In this document: positions 28,376 to 37,242 of the stretch, piece after piece
Layout: every line of letters begins with the position of its first letter
Position numbering within the stretch: the stretch's first letter is position 1
NCBI GenBank assembly: GCA_019359175.1
Contig: JAHHHU010000020.1
Location: forward strand, 19,137-83,136
Length of the DNA stretch: 64,000 nt
Reading direction: 5' to 3'
DNA from: Phormidium tanganyikae FI6-MK23
GTDB taxonomy: Bacteria > Cyanobacteriota > Cyanobacteriia > Leptolyngbyales > Leptolyngbyaceae
Program-made: the position numbers and the translations under genes
The notes under the pieces: generated by a model
Database searches by the model: none
Seen by the model: the letters and a program-made list of their open reading frames with translations, nothing else
Told to the model about the DNA's origin: nothing

Positions 28376-28702
28376 ATGACAGGTTTTTTGGCGCGGGGAA
28401 GAACTATGCGGCGGTGGCGGAGTTTTTGGCACACGATCGAGTTTATGAGCCAGGAGAATCCTCCTCAACTGATTGAAACGCTGATGTTGGCACTGTCAAT
28501 GGTGTTGTTTAGCGTGTGGATTGGGCAGGAGCAGTTGGCGTTTTTGCTGCTGGGGTTGGTGCTGACGGTAGGGGCTTGCGCGTCGATTTTGGTGCGTGAA
28601 GCGTTAATTCCGGCGATTCGTCCGCGTCCGACTCAGGTAATGGCAACGCTGCTGATGCTAGTGAGTCTTTACGGGTTTGCAGATTTGCTGTTCGTGCGTT
28701 GA
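28376..28702 (+). CDS. small integral membrane protein, unknown function
   Basis: About 108 residues with a basic N-terminus (ARGRTMRRWRSFWH) and two to three hydrophobic helices (LMLALSMVLFSVWIG, LAFLLLGLVLTVGACASILV, VMATLLMLVSLYGFADLLFV). ATG 28376 is preceded by AAAGGTAGAG; a GTG one codon earlier is possible. Spacing suggests cotranscription with the phosphoribosyltransferase. Its 3' end overlaps the convergent hpsP by 34 bases. I do not recognise a family. Confidence 0.6.
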   Translation: MTGFLARGRTMRRWRSFWHTIEFMSQENPPQLIETLMLALSMVLFSVWIGQEQLAFLLLGLVLTVGACASILVREALIPAIRPRPTQVMATLLMLVSLYGFADLLFVR

Positions 28703-29850
28703 ATTTCGCGATACGTAGTAATCATTTGTTGGGCGATCGCGTTCCAACTGTAGTGTTTCTGTGCATGAATTTGAGCGTTTTTGCCGCGTCGGAGTTGTTC
28801 GGCTCGATCGCAAATCGCTTCTTTCAAAGTTTGAGTTAATCTCTCGACATCGCACGTACAGATCCAACCGGATTGAGATCGCTCGATTTCTTGCCAAATG
28901 TGAACCTGATCCGAAATGACCACAGGCGTTCCAACGCTCATCGCTTCCGCGACTGCAATCCCGAAGTTTTCGTAGTACGAGGGCAGGACAAATAAATCAG
29001 CGGTTTTGAGTAAGGCAGTTTTCTCGCTTCCGGTGATGAATCCGACGATCGAGGTTTTGTCTTTGAGAGAAGAAGATTGGATGCGATCGCGAATTGCAGC
29101 TTCATAACTTGGATCTTGAGGGTTTCCACCTGCGAGAACGAAATGAAACTCTCGATCGAGAGTTTCCAAAGCAGGAAGAAGCAAATCTAAGCCTTTCTTG
29201 GGATCGATTCTCGACATAAAGAGGAGAATTGGTTTATCCGTCGGAATGCTAAGTTTCTCGCGGATTGAAATCGATTCAGAAGGCGGCAAACTGACACCGA
29301 GCGGGATTACCAAATCGCGAGTGACGGTGTTGAATCGCTCTGAAGTTTTAGCTTCTTGATCGCTGGTGAAATGAACGGCGGCGGCTCTCGACAGGTTTGG
29401 GCGTTCGAGTACAGCAGCATAAAGCCGTTTAAGATGACGTTTCTTTTGAAGATCAGCAGGATCGAGCGTTCCGAGTGGGCGAAGAATATAGGGGAGTTGA
29501 CGCGATCGAGCAATCGCAGCAGAACAGGAACTCACCGGGGAAAACAGCGCGTGAATGTGAGCGACATCGTAGTTTTGAGCGTTGTTCGATAGCCACTGGA
29601 GAAGGTCGATCGAGAATTTGTAGCGACGGAACGGAGAGCAGCGAAAGTAGAGAATTTTGTAGCCATTTTGTGCGATCGGAATTCCCAAAGGAACATCTAA
29701 AGGCGCTTGTCCAACATCACCATTTGAATCGGTTGTCGCGATCGTAACTTCGATTCCCGCTTCTGCTAATGCGCTCGATAGTCCTAATACCATTTGGCTC
29801 GGCCCGCCATAAACCAGTGAGATCGATGGCACGATTTGTAAGATTTTCAT
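28669..29850 (-). CDS. hpsP: glycosyltransferase family 4, hormogonium polysaccharide type (HpsP-like)
   Basis: A 393-residue GT-B enzyme. The N-terminus MKILQIVPSISLVYGGPSQM matches HpsP, one of the Nostoc hps glycosyltransferases needed for the polysaccharide that supports gliding of hormogonia. The C-terminal half has the GT4 signature FVLPSYYENFGIAVAEAMSV followed by GTPVVIS, and SRIDPKKGLDLLL for the sugar-nucleotide domain. It should act at the cytoplasmic side of the inner membrane. It is the last gene of the hps group, four bases after hpsO. It is intact, unlike parts of the genes upstream. The donor and acceptor sugars are unknown. Confidence 0.85.
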   Translation of the reverse strand: MKILQIVPSISLVYGGPSQMVLGLSSALAEAGIEVTIATTDSNGDVGQAPLDVPLGIPIAQNGYKILYFRCSPFRRYKFSIDLLQWLSNNAQNYDVAHIHALFSPVSSCSAAIARSRQLPYILRPLGTLDPADLQKKRHLKRLYAAVLERPNLSRAAAVHFTSDQEAKTSERFNTVTRDLVIPLGVSLPPSESISIREKLSIPTDKPILLFMSRIDPKKGLDLLLPALETLDREFHFVLAGGNPQDPSYEAAIRDRIQSSSLKDKTSIVGFITGSEKTALLKTADLFVLPSYYENFGIAVAEAMSVGTPVVISDQVHIWQEIERSQSGWICTCDVERLTQTLKEAICDRAEQLRRGKNAQIHAQKHYSWNAIAQQMITTYREIQRTNSKSANP

Positions 29851-29854
29851 TGTT

Positions 29855-31018
29855 TTAGAGCAATCGATAAAATTCCAAAAGTTCCTTTGCCAATGCTCGA
29901 TTCGTATATTTCGCGATCGCTCTTTGATACCCCCGCTGTCCTAATTCCTCAGCAAAACCGCGATCGTCGATTAATTGCTTGAGTCGATCGCTCAGTTCCT
30001 CAACATTCCCCTCTGGAAACACTAATCCCACTTCCCCAATCACATTCGGAATCTCGCCGGAATCTGATCCAATCACGGGAACCTGGCACGCCATCGCCTC
30101 GATTAACACATGACCGAATTGTTCTTTCCATCCAGCAGATGTGAGCGTTTTGAATTGATAGGTTGTTTCGGATGGCAAAACGAGCGTATTCATTAAATTG
30201 ATATAGCGATAAACATCAGCATGAGGAACGCTTTCTATCCAAATTAAACGATCGCTAAATCCAAATTGTTCGGCTTGTTCTTGAAGTTCTGCTTTGAGTT
30301 CGCCGCGTCCGAGTAGAAGAAGTTTCCAGTTACGATCGCGAATCTTCTCCAATGCTTTGATCAAGGTAAGAATTCCTTTCTCTGGCACAAATCGCCCGAC
30401 AAATCCTACGACAAAATCACCGAGTTGAATCCCAAGTTTTGCAGCAAGCTCTGGCTGAGATTGGGGACAAAAGAGCGAATCATCGACACCCAACTGAGGC
30501 ATGATGCTCATCTTTCCGGTGAATCCACGATCGCGCAAAATCTTCTCTCCGTCTTGGTTGCCCACGACGATTCCATCAGTATTTTTGAGGCTGTAAGCTT
30601 CAAGAAGCGAAATTGGAAATTTCAATTTGTAAGGCAAATTCCACCAAGTAAAGAAGAGATTCTTCGCTTTTAATCCAAGTAAATGATTTAGCGTAATCAA
30701 TTGAGCATATGCCAATGATTTTGAGCCTTGTTCTACTTGGATGATATTCGGACGAAACTCTTTTAGTAACGAGATTAGATCGGCTCCAAACGTGAGTAGC
30801 GCTTGATTGTTTTGGCTGAAGTTAGAAACGGGAACGACTCGAAACGAGCCTTCTTCGCGATATTGAGTCTCGATTGTATCTTTCATCACGCCGCCCGGTT
30901 TCCATCGCTTGGGAACCACGATCGTTACTTCGATTCCCGGTTCTAAGTTCACTAAGGCTCTAAGCTTTTCGCAGTTGAGATCAACAATATACGAATGGCT
31001 GGCAACGAGAATTCTCAT
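29855..31018 (-). CDS. hpsO: glycosyltransferase family 4, HpsO-like (intact copy)
   Basis: A full-length GT4 enzyme of 387 residues starting MRILVASHSYIVDLNCEKLR, the typical HpsO opening, with VVPKRWKPGG and IIQVEQGSKSLAYAQLIT. The C-terminal domain has VGFVGRFVPEKGILTLIKAL and the catalytic EQFGHVLIEAMACQVPVIGS. Its ATG overlaps the stop of a shortened hpsN copy (ATGA, 31015-31018). The first ~97 codons are duplicated at 33554-33837, where they are broken by a 5-base deletion. This copy appears functional. By analogy with Nostoc it serves exopolysaccharide synthesis for surface motility. Confidence 0.85.
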   Translation of the reverse strand: MRILVASHSYIVDLNCEKLRALVNLEPGIEVTIVVPKRWKPGGVMKDTIETQYREEGSFRVVPVSNFSQNNQALLTFGADLISLLKEFRPNIIQVEQGSKSLAYAQLITLNHLLGLKAKNLFFTWWNLPYKLKFPISLLEAYSLKNTDGIVVGNQDGEKILRDRGFTGKMSIMPQLGVDDSLFCPQSQPELAAKLGIQLGDFVVGFVGRFVPEKGILTLIKALEKIRDRNWKLLLLGRGELKAELQEQAEQFGFSDRLIWIESVPHADVYRYINLMNTLVLPSETTYQFKTLTSAGWKEQFGHVLIEAMACQVPVIGSDSGEIPNVIGEVGLVFPEGNVEELSDRLKQLIDDRGFAEELGQRGYQRAIAKYTNRALAKELLEFYRLL

Positions 31019-31723
31019 CGTTTCACCTCGTCTTGTTGCGTATTTGCCTTCAAACAGAAATCGGATTCTTCGCGGACTGCGCTGCCTCGAAACCGCTCAT
31101 CAAACCAGATGCCATATTTCTCAAACACCTCGCGGCGATAAGACATATTGCAGCCTCGCGCACTTAAAACCTGTTGCGGTTTCACAGTATGCACAAGGTT
31201 TAAGTGATACCAAGCAATCCCCGGATCGTGCGCTTCGGGTGGCAAGTCTTGAATTTCTAATCCTGATGCAAAATCGGCCAACTTCATTCGATCAAACACT
31301 CGACCTGCAACTGCTCCGACCTCGGATCGCTGATAGTTTTTCGCGTGTGCCGCCAAATATCCTGGCTCTAACTGCACATCGTCATCGATGAACAAAAGAA
31401 TTTCACCGCTTGATCGACGAACCGCATAGTTTCTCGCCCCCGGCAAACTCGCCCAGTCGAGCTTAAACCATTGAATCTTTCCAACCTGTGCCAAGTCTTC
31501 TAGAAACTGCTGAATATCCGGTTCATGCACAGGCGTTTGATCGACTACCAGGACTTCGTAGCTCGGATAGTCTTGCTTTAGAACATCGATGAGTGTCTCT
31601 CGGAGCGGTTCTTCTCGCCCATAGGTCGGAATGACCACAGAGATAAATGGCTGAGTCATGATGCCAGAGGAAACAACGCCGTTAGTGTTCCCAGAGACTC
31701 GGACTCTAAACCTTAGACAAAAG
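30730..31723. repeat. direct duplication, downstream copy (hpsN' and start of hpsO)
   Basis: This segment is nearly identical to 33554-34875, with the same orientation. The right edges end at GACAAAAG (31723 and 34875); the left edges are near GTTCTACTTG (30730 and 33554). Relative to the other copy, 340 bases of hpsN (33861-34200) are replaced here by seven bases (31042-31048), a net loss of 333. A 5-base stretch in hpsO is kept here but lost in the other copy. Confidence 0.9.
31015..31659 (-). pseudogene. hpsN copy with in-frame internal deletion
   Basis: This is a shortened copy of the hpsN at 33834-34811. From ATG 31659 it encodes MTQPFISVVIPTYGREEPLR and then runs identically through the GT2 catalytic part, including LLFIDDDVQLEPG, to EESDFCLK. 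There 111 residues net are missing before the shared last residues TQQDEVK. The lost part includes the distal catalytic segment and the membrane helix. The frame is kept, so a 214-residue protein could be made, and its stop still overlaps the hpsO ATG. It probably cannot transfer sugar but may serve translational coupling to hpsO. The longer open frame to 31803 overlaps the histidine kinase and is not used. Confidence 0.8.
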
Positions 31724-33283
31724 AGGAATTTCGATGAAAAACGCTGTTCCTTCAGTTTGGCTCGACGTAAAGTAGAGCTTGCCTTGATGGTATTCCGTGA
31801 CAATCTGATGACTAATTGACAGTCCTAAGCCTTTACCTTTACCAACCGGTTTTGTGGTGAAAAACGGATCAAACAGCTTGGATTGAATCTCTGGATCAAT
31901 GACATCCCCATTATTTGAAATCGTAATGCGTGCCCATCTTCTGTCAATCACCTCGGTCTGAATCTGAATCATTGGGGATTTAGGTTTTGCTTGTCCGATC
32001 GCTTCGATCGCATTCGACAAAACACTATAAAACACTTGATTCAATTGACCTGGGCAGCATTCAATCTCAGGTAAATCACCGTAGGTTTTTACTAACTGAA
32101 TCTCGATCGGATGCAGTACGCTCTTCAGGCGATGCTTTACTAGCAAAATCGTACTTTCAATTCCTGAGCGCAAGTCCACAGTTTTGCGTTCTGACTCATC
32201 TAAGCGCGAAAAAGTCCGTAGCCCGATTACCGTTTCTTCAATGCGCTCTGTTCCTAATAGCATCGATCGTAGTATTTTCTGTAAATCTTCTATGATGAAA
32301 GGAAAATCGATGCGATCAATTTCAGCTTGAATCATCGCGGGAGGAGTCGGCGTATTCTGCTGGTATAGCTCAATTAGACGTAACAAATCCTCGGCGTACT
32401 GTGCTACATACGTGAGATTTCCTTGAATAAAACTGTTTGGATTATTGATCTCATGCGCTACTCCCGCGACCAATTGCCCTAGGCTGGACAACTTCTCGGC
32501 TTGAATAAAGCATTGCGTCTGGTGTTCAATAAAACGCTGGGCTTGATGTAGTTTCTCCATCGCTTCAGTCAAGTCCTGATTTTTCTGATGTAGCGCAGAT
32601 TCGGCAACTTGTCGATCACGCAAATACAATCGCAAAATCTGAAGCACAATTAACCAGGTTGGCACTAGGAGTAAAATACTCATCACCATGATTATCAAAC
32701 ACCACTGGAGCGAGGTTTGATAATCCTTGGATTGCGCTTGAAGCTGTTGCTGAATGCTGAGATTTCTTTGAGCAACACCTGACGCGTAAATTTCTTTCTG
32801 AGTTTTGTAGGCTGGACTCGTCAAGAGCGTGAGCGCTTTTTGTGTCTGATTTTGCTCTACAAGCTGAAACGACTGTAATTCAAGCGCAATTAACGCTTGG
32901 TTAGCGGCATCAACCTGCTTTGCGTCCTGAGTCGAATAAATGTGAGGGGCAAGGTTGATGGATTCTTGAATCACCGCATCGAGTTCTGGGACAAATTTCT
33001 CATAGCGTTGCTGCCACGCTCGATCACCTGTTGCCGCGTTCATGAGAGCAGACATCGTGAGGACTTCATCAAGATGAGTGGCGCGATCGCTGAGATGCTG
33101 TAATTGCTGCTCTTGCTGACGCAGCCGATTGAAGTCCTGGTAAGTGCGCCAATTCATTCCAATCTGAGGGACAAATAGCAAGATCGTTAATGTGACTGCG
33201 ATAACGATCGTATGAGAGGGATGCTGAAGCAGTCTGGATCTCCAACGTTGCGGGAGCTGGTGTATGGGAAAATGCCTAATCAT
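31706..33283 (-). CDS. membrane sensor histidine kinase lying between the two hps copies
   Basis: A 525-residue sensor kinase. Residues about 26-45 form a first membrane helix, followed by a periplasmic helical sensor of some 150 residues resembling four-helix-bundle domains (QQLQHLSDRATHLDEVLTMS), a second helix (CLIIMVMSILLLVPTWLIVL), a coiled-coil linker and the kinase core. The H-box is GQLVAGVAHEINNPNSF with His near residue 277; the ATPase domain has the N-box (LSNAIEAIGQA) and G-boxes (GKGKGLGLSISHQ). All catalytic elements look intact. No response regulator is adjacent. Its last five codons and stop lie inside the duplicated hpsN upstream sequence, so the C-terminus is a junction product. 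It may be cotranscribed with hpsN'-hpsO-hpsP. Confidence 0.9.
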   Translation of the reverse strand: MIRHFPIHQLPQRWRSRLLQHPSHTIVIAVTLTILLFVPQIGMNWRTYQDFNRLRQQEQQLQHLSDRATHLDEVLTMSALMNAATGDRAWQQRYEKFVPELDAVIQESINLAPHIYSTQDAKQVDAANQALIALELQSFQLVEQNQTQKALTLLTSPAYKTQKEIYASGVAQRNLSIQQQLQAQSKDYQTSLQWCLIIMVMSILLLVPTWLIVLQILRLYLRDRQVAESALHQKNQDLTEAMEKLHQAQRFIEHQTQCFIQAEKLSSLGQLVAGVAHEINNPNSFIQGNLTYVAQYAEDLLRLIELYQQNTPTPPAMIQAEIDRIDFPFIIEDLQKILRSMLLGTERIEETVIGLRTFSRLDESERKTVDLRSGIESTILLVKHRLKSVLHPIEIQLVKTYGDLPEIECCPGQLNQVFYSVLSNAIEAIGQAKPKSPMIQIQTEVIDRRWARITISNNGDVIDPEIQSKLFDPFFTTKPVGKGKGLGLSISHQIVTEYHQGKLYFTSSQTEGTAFFIEIPLLSKV

Positions 33284-33402
33284 TCGATACGCAGTTGCTT
33301 TGAGAGTTTTTCAGCTTATTGGCTAGGTTTCCCAAAGCAGGTCTTTGGCTTTGTAGGAGGGAAGGAGGATGTGCAGGCTGAATTCTTAGGGCTAATCGAG
33401 AT

Positions 33403-33528
33403 AAGCAAACATTTTTGCTAGAAAAATCACGGCATTCGCTACAACAACCACGGCGTTCGTTATGACAAGCGGAATTTTTGCCACAACGATCGAGATTTTC
33501 GTCATCACAAACAGGATTTCATCGCTTT
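33403..33528. repeat. degenerate 21-bp tandem repeat, left array (about 6 units)
   Basis: Six consecutive 21-base units can be aligned, for example AAATCACGGCATTCGCTACAA and CAACCACGGCGTTCGTTATG(A), with a shared CGGNRTTCGYNA core. Read in frame the units suggest heptapeptides such as TTTAFVM, but the frame is not a gene with a start and ribosome binding site. The array lies between the kinase promoter side and the broken hpsO copy. A related array occurs at 34935-35144. Confidence 0.7.
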
Positions 33529-33553
33529 CGTTTCTTCTTCTTCGGATCTTCCA

Positions 33554-33837
33554 GTTCTACTTGAATGATATTCGGACGAAACTCTTTTAATAGCGAGATT
33601 AGATCGGCTCGTGAGTAGCCCTTGATTGTTTTGGCTGAAGTTAGAAACGGGAACGACTCGAAACGAGCCTTCTTCGCGATATTGAGTCTCGATCGTATCT
33701 TTCATCACGCCGCCCGGTTTCCATCGCTTGGGAACCACGATCGTTACTTCGATTCCTGGCTCTAAGTTCGCTAAGGCTCTAAGTTTTTCGCAGTTGAGAT
33801 CAACGATATACGAATGGCTGGCAACGAGAATTCTCAT
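33554..33837 (-). pseudogene. truncated and frameshifted hpsO copy
   Basis: This holds the first ~97 codons of hpsO, from ATG 33837 (MRILVASHSYIVDLNCEKLR) through VVPVSNFSQNNQGLL. Compared with the intact copy at 29855-31018 five bases (CAAAC) are missing near 33609, shifting the frame, and homology ends at 33554. The rest of the gene is absent. The start overlaps the stop of the full hpsN by four bases, just as in the intact arrangement. No functional product is expected. Confidence 0.9.
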
Positions 33838-34811
33838 AGTTTCACCTCGTCTTGTTGCGTGTAGATTTGTCCGTCGTTCCAGAGAGAGCGAATCACTGTT
33901 GCGATCGCACTCAAAAAGCCCAACGTATAAAACCCGAATCGCGTCACGATTTTGATCAGGGAACCGCTTTTATGACAAGGCGGACGACCCAGCACATGAC
34001 AATCAAACAATCGGAAAAAGAATCGCGCCGCCTGCGAAATTGTGAGATTGTTCAAGCCCATTAAAAAGTGATTGTGATAGAACGTCATCTGATATTTCAA
34101 CGATTTGGTGCTGATATCGTGACAGCCGCCCGTCTCTTCTCCCAAATGCACTAATGAAGCTTCTGGGTCATACCAAACAATCAATCCTGTCTTTCTCAGT
34201 TTCAAACAGAAATCGGATTCTTCGCGGACTGCACTGCCTCGAAACCGCTCATCAAACCAGATGCCATATTTCTCAAACACCTCGCGGCGATAAGACATAT
34301 TGCAGCCTCGCGCACTTAAAACCTGTTGCGGTTTCACAGTATGCACAAGGTTTAAGTGATACCAAGCAATCCCCGGATCGTGCGCTTCGGGTGGCAAGTC
34401 TTGAATTTCTAATCCTGATGCAAAATCGGCCAACTTCATTCGATCAAACACTCGACCTGCAACTGCTCCGACCTCGGATCGCTGATAGTTTTTCGCGTGT
34501 GCCGCCAAATATCCTGGCTCTAACTGCACATCGTCATCGATGAACAAAAGAATTTCACCGCTTGATCGACGAACCGCATAGTTTCTCGCCCCCGGCAAAC
34601 TCGCCCAGTCGAGCTTAAACCATTGAATCTTTCCAACCTGTGCCAAGTCTTCTAGAAACTGCTGAATATCCGGTTCATGCACAGGCGTTTGATCGACTAC
34701 CAGGACTTCGTAGCTCGGATAGTCTTGCTTTAGAACATCGATGAGTGTCTCTCGGAGCGGTTCTTCTCGCCCATAGGTCGGAATGACCACAGAGATAAAT
34801 GGCTGAGTCAT
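33834..34811 (-). CDS. hpsN: glycosyltransferase family 2, HpsN-like (full-length copy)
   Basis: A 325-residue GT-A enzyme. The N-terminus FISVVIPTYGREEPLRETL is typical of family 2, with the metal/nucleotide-binding LLFIDDDVQLEPGYL and later EESDFCLKLRKTGLIVWYD, which supplies the ED-type acceptor motif. A C-terminal hydrophobic region (YTLGFLSAIATVIRSLW) probably anchors it in the inner membrane. It corresponds to the Nostoc HpsN protein of hormogonium polysaccharide synthesis. In the parental order it would be followed by hpsO and hpsP; here it is followed by a broken hpsO, then the kinase, and then the second copy set. Confidence 0.87.
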   Translation of the reverse strand: MTQPFISVVIPTYGREEPLRETLIDVLKQDYPSYEVLVVDQTPVHEPDIQQFLEDLAQVGKIQWFKLDWASLPGARNYAVRRSSGEILLFIDDDVQLEPGYLAAHAKNYQRSEVGAVAGRVFDRMKLADFASGLEIQDLPPEAHDPGIAWYHLNLVHTVKPQQVLSARGCNMSYRREVFEKYGIWFDERFRGSAVREESDFCLKLRKTGLIVWYDPEASLVHLGEETGGCHDISTKSLKYQMTFYHNHFLMGLNNLTISQAARFFFRLFDCHVLGRPPCHKSGSLIKIVTRFGFYTLGFLSAIATVIRSLWNDGQIYTQQDEVKL

Positions 34812-34934
34812 GATGCCAGAGGAAACAACGCCGTTAGTGTTCCCAGAGACTCGGACTCTAAACCTTAGACAAAAGGGCTAATTCAAGATGATGCGATCGT
34901 GTTGTGAAGGGACGACGCTATCAATTCAAATAAG

Positions 34935-35144
34935 AAAGTGTTTTCACTGAGAAAATCAGGACGTTCGTAGTGAAGATTTCGACGTTCGCGGTATCGGTTG
35001 CGGTTTTCACGAAGAAAGTCGTAACAGTCGTGGTGAGGATTGCGACGTCCGTGGTGAATGGTGCGATCGTTGCCGTATCGAATCTAAGGTTCGCGGTAAC
35101 GGCGATGAAATTGGTAAGGACAAATTGCGATATTTCTGATGACA
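34935..35144. repeat. degenerate 21-bp tandem repeat, right array (about 10 units)
   Basis: Units of 21 bases run without gaps, for example TCAGGACGTTCGTAGTGAAG(A) and TTTCGACGTTCGCGGTATCG(G), with a consensus around CGACGTTCGTGGTGA. Both strands stay open through the array only because the unit length is a multiple of three; the resulting Thr/Val-rich heptad peptide (TTNVEIF-like) has no convincing start signal. The units share their core and orientation with the array at 33403-33528, so the two arrays bracket the upstream hps copy. They are classed as a noncoding minisatellite. Confidence 0.75.
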
Positions 35145-35175
35145 CTCAAAGTTTTCGCCGCGTTTAGTCACTCGT

Positions 35176-35238
35176 GACTGTCGGGATACTGTTGGCTAGG
35201 CTTCAATCGCCTCGATCGCAAACAGTATCCTGGCAGTC
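35176..35238. other. long imperfect hairpin downstream of the TPR-like gene
   Basis: Arms 35176-35193 and 35221-35238 pair at 16 of 18 positions, around GGATACTGTT/AACAGTATCC, with a 27-base loop that itself holds AGGC/GCCT complementarity. It lies 22 bases beyond the stop of the minus-strand gene at 35261-35872 and may be its terminator, although no T tract follows. Confidence 0.5.
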
Positions 35239-35260
35239 CGAGCAACGAGAGCGAAACGTC

Positions 35261-35872
35261 CTAACGATTCGTCGGTTGCTCCGCAGTTCGGGGATATTGA
35301 ACATCCACGAATCCGAGTTCAAGTAACTGCTGATACGCCTGTTTACCCAAATCGCGGGTCGGTTGCTGGCTTCGGATAATTTGCACCAGAAGCGGCACAG
35401 CTAGCTCAGATTGGTTCATTGCTCGATGCACCAAAGCTAGGCGATAGGTAGCTTGATCGCGCATTTCCGCTGTTTCTAAAGCTTTTTTGCGCTGGCTGTC
35501 TGCGACGCGGGTATCAATTCCAGAAAAACTGGTTGCCAAATCTTGGTAGAAGTTAGACAACTGATTGAACACTTGACGCGCATCTTGCAGTTTTTTCAGA
35601 GCTAACGGCATATTTTGCGCTTTTACGGCTTGATCAGCTTCATTCATCAGCCGCTGTCCACCCTGCAAACTCAATAAACCATCACCCTGAACTGCCGTTG
35701 GACGCACCACATTTGGATCGGTGGGATCGATCGGACGCGCTTGACCCGATCCAGGCGCGGGTTTGGGCGTTTGAGCCTGAACAGACGGTGTTGCGAACAT
35801 CACACCTGCAAGCATTGAGAGCGAAAGAATGCCAGAGATGGAAAGAGGTTGAATCGTTCTCAGATGAGCCAT
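35261..35872 (-). CDS. exported TPR-like protein, unknown function
   Basis: A 203-residue protein from ATG 35872 (MAHLRTIQPLSISGILSLSM) with a signal peptide ending near VQAQ. The start is chosen because it opens directly into this signal peptide; the longer frame to 36016 overlaps the gss-like gene. After a Pro-rich linker comes a helical region (RLMNEADQAVKAQNMPLALK, then YRLALVHRAMNQSELAVPLL) of tetratricopeptide character. It is probably periplasmic. It lies 117 bases after the gss-like gene in the same direction. I do not know a characterised homologue. Confidence 0.7.
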   Translation of the reverse strand: MAHLRTIQPLSISGILSLSMLAGVMFATPSVQAQTPKPAPGSGQARPIDPTDPNVVRPTAVQGDGLLSLQGGQRLMNEADQAVKAQNMPLALKKLQDARQVFNQLSNFYQDLATSFSGIDTRVADSQRKKALETAEMRDQATYRLALVHRAMNQSELAVPLLVQIIRSQQPTRDLGKQAYQQLLELGFVDVQYPRTAEQPTNR

Positions 35873-35988
35873 GAATAATTGCAGAATGCTATAGGACAAC
35901 TTGGAACCCTCGGATCTTATCATTGTGAGATCCATTTTCAGGTGAAGCCGATCGATTCGTTTTTGTTCCTCAGAAGTTAAACCGGAAG

Positions 35989-37242
35989 TTAAACCGAAAT
36001 GCCGATCGGACACCAATAAGAGTAATCATCGGTAATTTTGCCTTCTGAAACCCGAAGCCCAACTCCAGCGGGAACAAAGTGAGTTCCATCGTTAAACAGC
36101 CAAGTACTCCACAAAGCAGTCATCGATCGATGATCAATTTCAATCGTTGGAAACTCAAGCAATTCTTGATAGACATAATCTTGGTCGGTGTACCAAGGAT
36201 CTTGGTTAGAACTTTGAACGCCAACTTCTCCAGAAATCATCGAGAAACAGCCTTCTCCTTGTCGTCCTAAAACGGGTTTTGCAAAGTAAGTGTCACCCAT
36301 TTCATCGGAGGTTTGAGCCGTTTTTGGAAAGAAATCAAATACGGTTTCTGCAAGCTCTGGCGTGAAGAAATCTAAGCCTAAATCGGAAACTAAAGCAAAA
36401 ATGCTTTTCGGTTGGAGCGCGAAAGCAGATGCAAAATTAACGATCGCAATTCTTCGTTTCAAGATCAATTCTTCCAGGGCATCCCAAAGCTTTGCACTAT
36501 TGGAATCGCGATCGTGAATTGCCCATTCGAGCGGATACCACATAAATAAAATGTCGATCGCTTCTCCAGTTTTCTCACGGAACAAGTATTGATGATCTTT
36601 GATGCGGAGTTCATCGATCGGAAACACGCATCGGTTTTCAGCAACAAATTGATTTAACCAGCGCATCGTTCCCAGATCTTCTAAGTTGTTCAGCGTGGTT
36701 AATCCGATTTGGCATTGTTCGATCGGTTTTCTGATCCAATCTGCGGCGCGTTGAAGTTGCTGGCTCATCGAATAGCTGAGAACGGACTTCAGCCCAATTT
36801 CGGGTGGCTTCATACCAAAATGTTCTGCAACTTTGGCATTTCCTTCGATACATTCAAACCAGAAGCTCGGCGTTTGTACGTTCGCTTCGATCACTTTATA
36901 AACGCCTGTTGTTTCATTCCAGCACCAATCGAGCCGCATACAAAACGGTGCTAATCGATCGAACTTAATCACCCGAATCGTTTCTTCTGGAAACCCATAT
37001 TCGAGCAAAGTTTCGGCATCAAATTCGCGCACAACCGACCAAAGATACGTCAGCACTTTTCCGACTCGTTCCGCCGCTCGCTTTAAGTTCGCAATTTGGC
37101 TTTCTGTCGTCGGATGACAGTGATACAGCGCGTAGGGATTTGGAGTCGCTGAAGTTCCATTGACAGACGCGAGATTGTACCAAGGCATCTGAATCTGACG
37201 GAAAAAGCGATCTCGATCGACTCCTTCAAACGGATTATTCAT
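35989..37242 (-). CDS. glutathionylspermidine synthase-like ATP-grasp protein
   Basis: A 417-residue protein of the GSP_synth family, related to the amidase-free E. coli YgiC/YjfC proteins. It shows MRLDWCWNETTGVYKVIEAN with the Mg/ATP acidic residues, WYPLEWAIHD, and the ATP-binding FAKPVLGRQGEGCFSM near residue 330. YgiC-type enzymes ligate small peptides rather than making true glutathionylspermidine, so the product here is uncertain. It overlaps the upstream lipoprotein gene by four bases (ATGA), a pairing reminiscent of E. coli ygiB-ygiC. Confidence 0.85.
   Translation of the reverse strand: MNNPFEGVDRDRFFRQIQMPWYNLASVNGTSATPNPYALYHCHPTTESQIANLKRAAERVGKVLTYLWSVVREFDAETLLEYGFPEETIRVIKFDRLAPFCMRLDWCWNETTGVYKVIEANVQTPSFWFECIEGNAKVAEHFGMKPPEIGLKSVLSYSMSQQLQRAADWIRKPIEQCQIGLTTLNNLEDLGTMRWLNQFVAENRCVFPIDELRIKDHQYLFREKTGEAIDILFMWYPLEWAIHDRDSNSAKLWDALEELILKRRIAIVNFASAFALQPKSIFALVSDLGLDFFTPELAETVFDFFPKTAQTSDEMGDTYFAKPVLGRQGEGCFSMISGEVGVQSSNQDPWYTDQDYVYQELLEFPTIEIDHRSMTALWSTWLFNDGTHFVPAGVGLRVSEGKITDDYSYWCPIGISV

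Follow-up and report, generated by a model that had tools for sequence, protein, structure and literature searches.

We analysed a stretch of 64,000 nucleotides (nt) of Phormidium tanganyikae FI6-MK23 (contig JAHHHU010000020.1; the whole stretch is called the window), in which hpsN, hpsO and hpsP, genes of a predicted operon for motility slime, lie on the minus strand together with second, damaged copies of hpsN and hpsO and with a sensor histidine kinase gene between the two sets. In order of transcription, the locus comprises a gene for a 251-amino-acid (aa) protein, a leader with a predicted SigJ promoter motif (J-Box), an intact hpsN, the start of hpsO, a remnant of the end of hpsL, an array with a 21-nt period, the kinase gene, a second J-Box leader, a shortened hpsN, hpsO and hpsP (Table 1). 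The sequence comes from a single assembly of 77 contigs (G000 among the genomes compared below), for which contamination is given as 0.58%. Two direct repeats, copy A of ~1.0 kb and copy B of ~1.3 kb, underlie this arrangement; an initial annotation of the window had placed their edges exactly, and had correctly located the kinase gene between them in the same orientation. The names hpsN and hpsO were swapped in it: according to the NCBIfam models, the intact HpsN is encoded by the copy at 33.8-34.8 kb and the intact HpsO by the copy at 30.7-31.7 kb.

Table 1. Features of the duplicated hps locus, in window coordinates.
Feature	Position	Strand	Basis
hpsP, intact, 393 aa	28669-29850	-	NCBIfam NF038295, 668.9 bits, above cut-off of 550
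hpsO, intact, 387 aa, copy A	29855-31018	-	NF038298, 715 bits, above cut-off of 575
Repeat copy A: start of hpsO, shortened hpsN, leader, final 18 nt of kinase gene	30730-31723	-	
hpsN copy A, 214 aa, in-frame net deletion of 333 nt	31015-31659	-	alignment, family scans
J-Box GGGAACACT, copy A, predicted SigJ extended -10	31684-31692	-	consensus GGGaAtacT (excerpts of PMC6495340)
Sensor histidine kinase, 525 aa, 1578 nt	31706-33283	-	PF02518; orthologues directly upstream of hpsN in congeners
Degenerate array, 21-nt period	33379-33542	.	lag-21 self-match 0.57
hpsL 3′-end remnant, abutting copy B	33516-33553	-	aligned to hpsL ends in congeners
Repeat copy B	33554-34875	-	pairwise alignment
hpsO copy B, first 284 nt, 5-nt deletion, frame lost	33554-33837	-	NF038298, 136.6 bits (fragment 33505-33837), below cut-off of 575
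hpsN, intact, 325 aa, copy B	33834-34811	-	NF038299, 605.7 bits, above cut-off of 425
J-Box GGGAACACT, copy B, predicted SigJ extended -10	34836-34844	-	
251-aa gene, other side of synteny break	35261-36016	-	no family above cut-off

The longest identical run shared by the two copies is 642 nt (31082-31723), far beyond chance, and at its right edge the repeat extends into the kinase gene, taking in the final 18 nt of that gene (31706-31723). Identity is, however, spread unevenly. A single mismatch in 675 nt separates the copies on the hpsN side, whereas on the hpsO side there are 11 mismatches in 307 nt and a 5-nt gap (Fisher p = 2e-5); the description of the repeats as nearly identical thus fits the former side better than the latter. 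Copy A carries an hpsN of 645 nt, as against 978 nt in copy B, shortened in frame with no frameshift, and the stop codon of the shortened gene overlaps the start of hpsO (31015-31018). The shortened HpsN retains the GT2 core, with PF00535 matched over nearly the whole model, and is without much of the C-terminal third; the frame at 31015-31803 scores 372.7 bits against NF038299, below the cut-off of 425. In copy B it is hpsO that is broken. The 5-nt deletion is copy B's, and three changes are unique to hpsO of copy A, being absent from the eight other genomes compared. The damage is complementary, and a single full set of hpsN, hpsO and hpsP persists, as had been proposed; a lineage-specific duplication of this kind is supported.

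The shortened HpsN might be a working glycosyltransferase variant, maintained by selection, with a changed polysaccharide as the result. The in-frame deletion and the extent of the PF00535 match would suit such a protein, as would the near-identity of its 5′ part to the intact copy, but recent gene conversion explains this identity equally well, the score lies below the HpsN cut-off, and no other genome holds a shortened HpsN among the matches listed by the protein search (best 120 of 1262). We consider this variant very unlikely.

Divergence between the copies on the hpsO side (~4%, 11/307) compares with 18-21% to congeners, suggesting that the duplication is probably younger than the splits between the sampled species. 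A single duplication followed by even divergence does not give identity as uneven as that observed, while later conversion of the leader and the 5′ part of hpsN would; we infer that recent gene conversion homogenised these parts of the two copies. Since the near-identity starts at the copy A deletion, the conversion and the in-frame deletion may be one event. The ratio of nonsynonymous to synonymous divergence (dN/dS) against congeners was below 0.1 for the intact hpsN of copy B (0.025-0.049, seven congeners, the G002 copy being partial), for hpsO of copy A (0.05-0.08, six congeners), for hpsP and for the kinase, with dS mostly above 1, that is, saturated, in these comparisons. These values point to past constraint on the four proteins and do not date the present arrangement.

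The kinase has a HATPase_c domain (PF02518, 73.2 bits; cut-off 26.4). The HisKA model gave no match, and the stretch VAHEINNP can be seen in this kinase and in that of G002; the score against the T2SS_HK histidine kinase model NF038348, 201.4 bits, is below its cut-off of 450. Full-length orthologues at 69-78% identity were found in 3 of 57 relatives searched, all of the same genus (G002, 78%; G007, 70%; G005, 69%), and the remaining matches among those listed are at most 58% identical, three of them (43-47%) spanning most of the length and the others mainly the kinase domain. A contig search with the kinase returned four loci, one of them full-length, on a LEGE 13415 contig. In G002, G005 and G007 the orthologue lies between hpsL and hpsN, on the same strand and ~50 bp upstream of hpsN (the G002 contig ends inside hpsN). 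G004 has a decayed kinase upstream of hpsN, with the middle gone and parts matching residues 9-68 and 425-524 remaining (L070, 10012-10471), which looks like decay in progress, and no kinase match was found within the stretches fetched from G001, G003 and G006.

Trees of HpsN, HpsO and HpsP do not unite the kinase bearers in one clade: G005 groups with G007, G002 with G003 and G006, and the remnant-bearing G004 with G001, several nodes having low support (34-82%) and the placement of G000 being weakly supported. The spread of the kinase across the genus tree argues that it is an old neighbour of hpsN and that copy B is the newcomer, an ancestral kinase followed by losses being the simplest reading of the gene content. 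Its place inside the hpsL-hpsN cluster would thus be long-standing in the genus, with several lineages apparently in the process of losing it. The kinase had been taken by default for the newcomer, a view that we rejected because its orthologues adjoin hpsN in congeners; for the same reason, and given the G004 remnant, the proposal in the initial annotation that the event placed a kinase among the hps genes fails. At 31706-31723 the kinase gene, with its final codons and stop, runs into the conserved hpsN leader, so that the kinase C-terminus and the promoter region share DNA. A kinase-like tail also precedes hpsN in kinase-less genomes. Its interpretation as a mere scar of kinase loss is weakened by the outgroup G011, which has a similar leader and no kinase match in the stretch fetched, and we take the tail to be, probably, conserved promoter DNA into which the kinase gene extends.

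The SigJ extended -10 motif, or J-Box, GGGaAtacT, is described for Nostoc punctiforme in excerpts of PMC6495340 and is also treated in the excerpted text of PMC12188702 and PMC7204071. The sequence GGGAACACT in the hpsN leaders of both copies agrees with it, including the conserved GGG, A and T, and these two sites are the only strict matches in the window. A J-Box stands 33-36 nt before hpsN in all eight genomes sampled from the genus and in G011; the strict motif precedes hpsO in 1 of 24 genomes and hpsP in none of 18. Before pilB, a loose J-Box-like site occupies one constant place in 5 of 7 genus loci (G002, with a partial match, was left out). A SigJ promoter before hpsN is thus a prediction for this genus, to which it extends the motif known from Nostoc punctiforme.

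The kinase gene starts 550 nt after the hpsN stop of copy B, with no terminator-like site found between the two, which makes read-through from the copy B promoter into the kinase likely and would probably put the kinase downstream of one predicted SigJ unit. Sigma-70 promoter predictions (7, against 8.0 in shuffled sequence) and terminator predictions (4, against 7.0) showed no excess. A new regulatory link had been suggested for this locus. If there is one, its direction is the reverse of that proposed: a copy of the hps promoter has come to lie upstream of the kinase.

Six of 7 congeners carry hpsL ahead of hpsN or of the kinase; within the stretches fetched, G001 is the exception. The window holds only the remnant of the hpsL end, and the intact gene of this genome is on contig C50 (L107, 9409-11001; HpsL model NF038300, 795.1 bits, above the cut-off of 640). 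A first reading of this gene as wzy/O-antigen-ligase-like was discarded once the family scan identified it as HpsL, with nothing over the cut-off in Pfam; for the 251-aa gene, at first labelled TPR, there were only sub-threshold TPR matches. On C50, the gene immediately after hpsL encodes an alpha/beta hydrolase, and it and the further genes behind it are those found after the 251-aa gene in G005, G006 and G007; in the window it is copy B that the 251-aa gene precedes. The adjacency of the 251-aa gene and the hydrolase was not found in the stretches fetched from G001 and G004, and the 251-aa gene had no match in G003. As judged from gene order, the two loci have exchanged neighbours reciprocally, copy B lying at the joint, and hpsL appears to have been parted in this way from hpsN, hpsO and hpsP. 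The two loci are in opposite orientation, as an inversion requires, in G001 and G003, that is, in two of the three relatives with both matches on contig C1. Among the congeners, only this genome has copy B on the other side of the kinase and the synteny break there.

We consider it reasonably probable, and favour the reading, that a piece containing the hpsN leader, hpsN and the start of hpsO was duplicated around the kinase, and that hpsN-hpsO-hpsP was likely split into two predicted SigJ units. The retention of the hpsN leader and J-Box by both copies argues for such a split. The piece would have been duplicated in this lineage, most likely in tandem, after which the chromosome would have been rearranged, likely by an inversion that moved hpsL away as well, with copy B left at a new junction. 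Later gene conversion would have equalised the hpsN leaders and 5′ parts, perhaps together with the deletion. HpsN would now be supplied from copy B, and HpsO and HpsP from copy A, each through its own J-Box, and the shortened hpsN would persist as a translated lead-in through which translation of hpsO stays coupled. Whereas the kinase used to lie upstream of the hpsN promoter, transcription from the promoter of copy B could now reach it as well. Direct orientation and the novel joint between the hpsO part and the hpsL end would agree with a tandem duplication; native outer flanks, which such an event would leave, are lacking at copy B.

A number of observations weigh against this scheme. A tandem duplication running from the hpsL end to hpsO would have produced a second kinase copy, and the search of the genome revealed none. 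The hpsL remnant differs from the end of this genome's own hpsL at 8 of 36 positions and is thus not a recent copy of it; together with the similar hpsL ends near hpsN in G003 and G006, this makes the remnant poorer evidence that a tandem duplication took place recently. A stretch of ~85 nt ahead of copy B (within 34880-35145) matches, despite the distance between the hps genes of the two genomes, the DNA before hpsN in G004 (G004:C332:14344-14425, L134) with a score of 66 and E = 2.5e-8, as compared with at most 26 in 300 shuffles and at most 33 in six other congeners, and simple duplication fails to explain this G004-like DNA. As to the rearrangement, only 3 of the 6 loci fetched show the neighbour order that was taken as the ancestral one at the second locus, and the orientation of the two loci in G006 does not suit an inversion. 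As to the promoters, the strict motif is absent within 250 nt in the other 13 of the 22 genomes with a readable region upstream of hpsN, and a loose site within 100 nt of hpsE is present in 1 of 10 loci and missing from 9 of 10 (it lies at about -300 in 3 of 10). Two J-Boxes in the window are not above chance either (1.42 expected; 45 of 100 shuffles reach two), so that it is the conserved position, not the count, that supports the promoter. Finally, the whole structure is taken from one assembly of 77 contigs.

The G004-like upstream DNA, the remnant differences and the missing second kinase together leave room for an imported allele. A kinase-bearing allele from a close relative (hpsL end, kinase, hpsN, hpsO) could have integrated, in Campbell fashion, into a kinase-less hps locus through a single homologous crossover and a single illegitimate joint within hpsO, so that the two alleles came to lie next to each other. 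The uneven divergence between the copies fits such an origin, and kinase-less loci do exist in the genus (G001, G003, G006). But the kinase is already an old neighbour of hpsN in the genus, so that no import is needed, and the hpsO part of copy B is not close to G004. For this last reason an import from G004 itself was rejected for the genes, while the upstream DNA still matches that genome. No integration gene was seen between the repeats: the kinase and one opposite-strand open reading frame overlapping it are the only frames of at least 80 aa wholly between them. We regard integration as a possible explanation, if a somewhat unlikely one. The initial annotation had offered tandem duplication or Campbell-type integration; a lineage-specific duplication is supported, whereas the hallmarks of Campbell-type integration are not seen, the kinase being native to the congener locus. 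Of the two routes, tandem duplication seems the likelier.

A further reading is that the arrangement is an artefact of assembly, in which the 642-nt identical stretch, longer than a usual short read, led to wrong exits, or two strains were merged. The number of contigs and the confinement of the shortened HpsN to this genome among the matches listed would agree with such an error, but the copies differ by 12 substitutions and gaps and have four different outer joints, the exchange of synteny is visible independently on C50, and the contamination given is low. We therefore take an artefact to be quite improbable.

With the duplicated and split operon as the preferred reading, the locus can be set beside known systems. 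Segmental duplication followed by reciprocal gene loss is known as duplication-degeneration-complementation. As in that process, each copy here has lost a different part and the two jointly hold one full set; unlike in it, a piece of an operon with its promoter is affected, transcription units are split and later conversion is likely. In Nostoc punctiforme, neighbouring tags carry hpsL (Npun_R0640) and hpsN-hpsP (R0638-R0636), and in Leptolyngbya boryana hpsN, hpsO and hpsP are near-consecutive (LBDG_09280, 09290, 09320) with a distant hpsL tag (LBDG_04020), according to the excerpted text of PMC10581220. The genes are the same in our locus, and the distant hpsL of L. boryana recalls the displacement described above, but here the kinase and broken copies separate hpsN from hpsO-hpsP. 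The comparison with relatives, which the initial annotation had called for, showed contiguous hpsN-hpsO-hpsP after the kinase and J-Box in G005 and G007. The order in these congeners, and in G002 up to the contig end, is hpsL-kinase-J-Box-hpsN-hpsO-hpsP, with the kinase directly before the J-Box and hpsN on the same strand as here; in contrast to the window, they have a single hpsN and hpsO, an adjacent hpsL, and a kinase upstream of, not between, hps promoters.

The locus would then be a snapshot of an operon splitting with no loss of a gene or of predicted control, its promoter region having been copied with the first gene before the copies suffered differing losses. This is instructive but fairly ordinary operon remodelling. 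The role of the kinase in motility slime becomes a testable question. We also considered a metastable motility switch, which we think unlikely: RecA recombination across the 642-nt core could loop out the kinase together with the only intact hpsN, leaving a J-Box, the shortened hpsN, hpsO and hpsP. If so, the kinase would have come under a SigJ promoter in common with the sole intact hpsN, and the locus would have a built-in source of slime-less, sessile variants.

The 28600-35400 region gave no Rfam match at gathering scores. The array at 33379-33542 is the sole stretch of the window above the lag-21 threshold of 0.52, and a weak 21-nt period also marks the intergenic stretch from the 251-aa gene to copy B. 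Degenerate arrays of the same period also lie upstream of hpsN in G003, G004 and G006 (L069, 9210-9422; L070, 9372-9677; L073, 9545-9744). In G001 (L071, 10155-10607), where hpsL is gone from the hps locus, a gene for a 150-aa protein, which we take to be HNH-like, reaches the hpsN leader; this is perhaps an independent break at the same place. A GSP_synth-like gene in G003 is interrupted by ~860 bp (L106, 6312-8422), and in G014 (C431; L034, L036) hpsO is matched in two overlapping pieces, one with an internal TAG.

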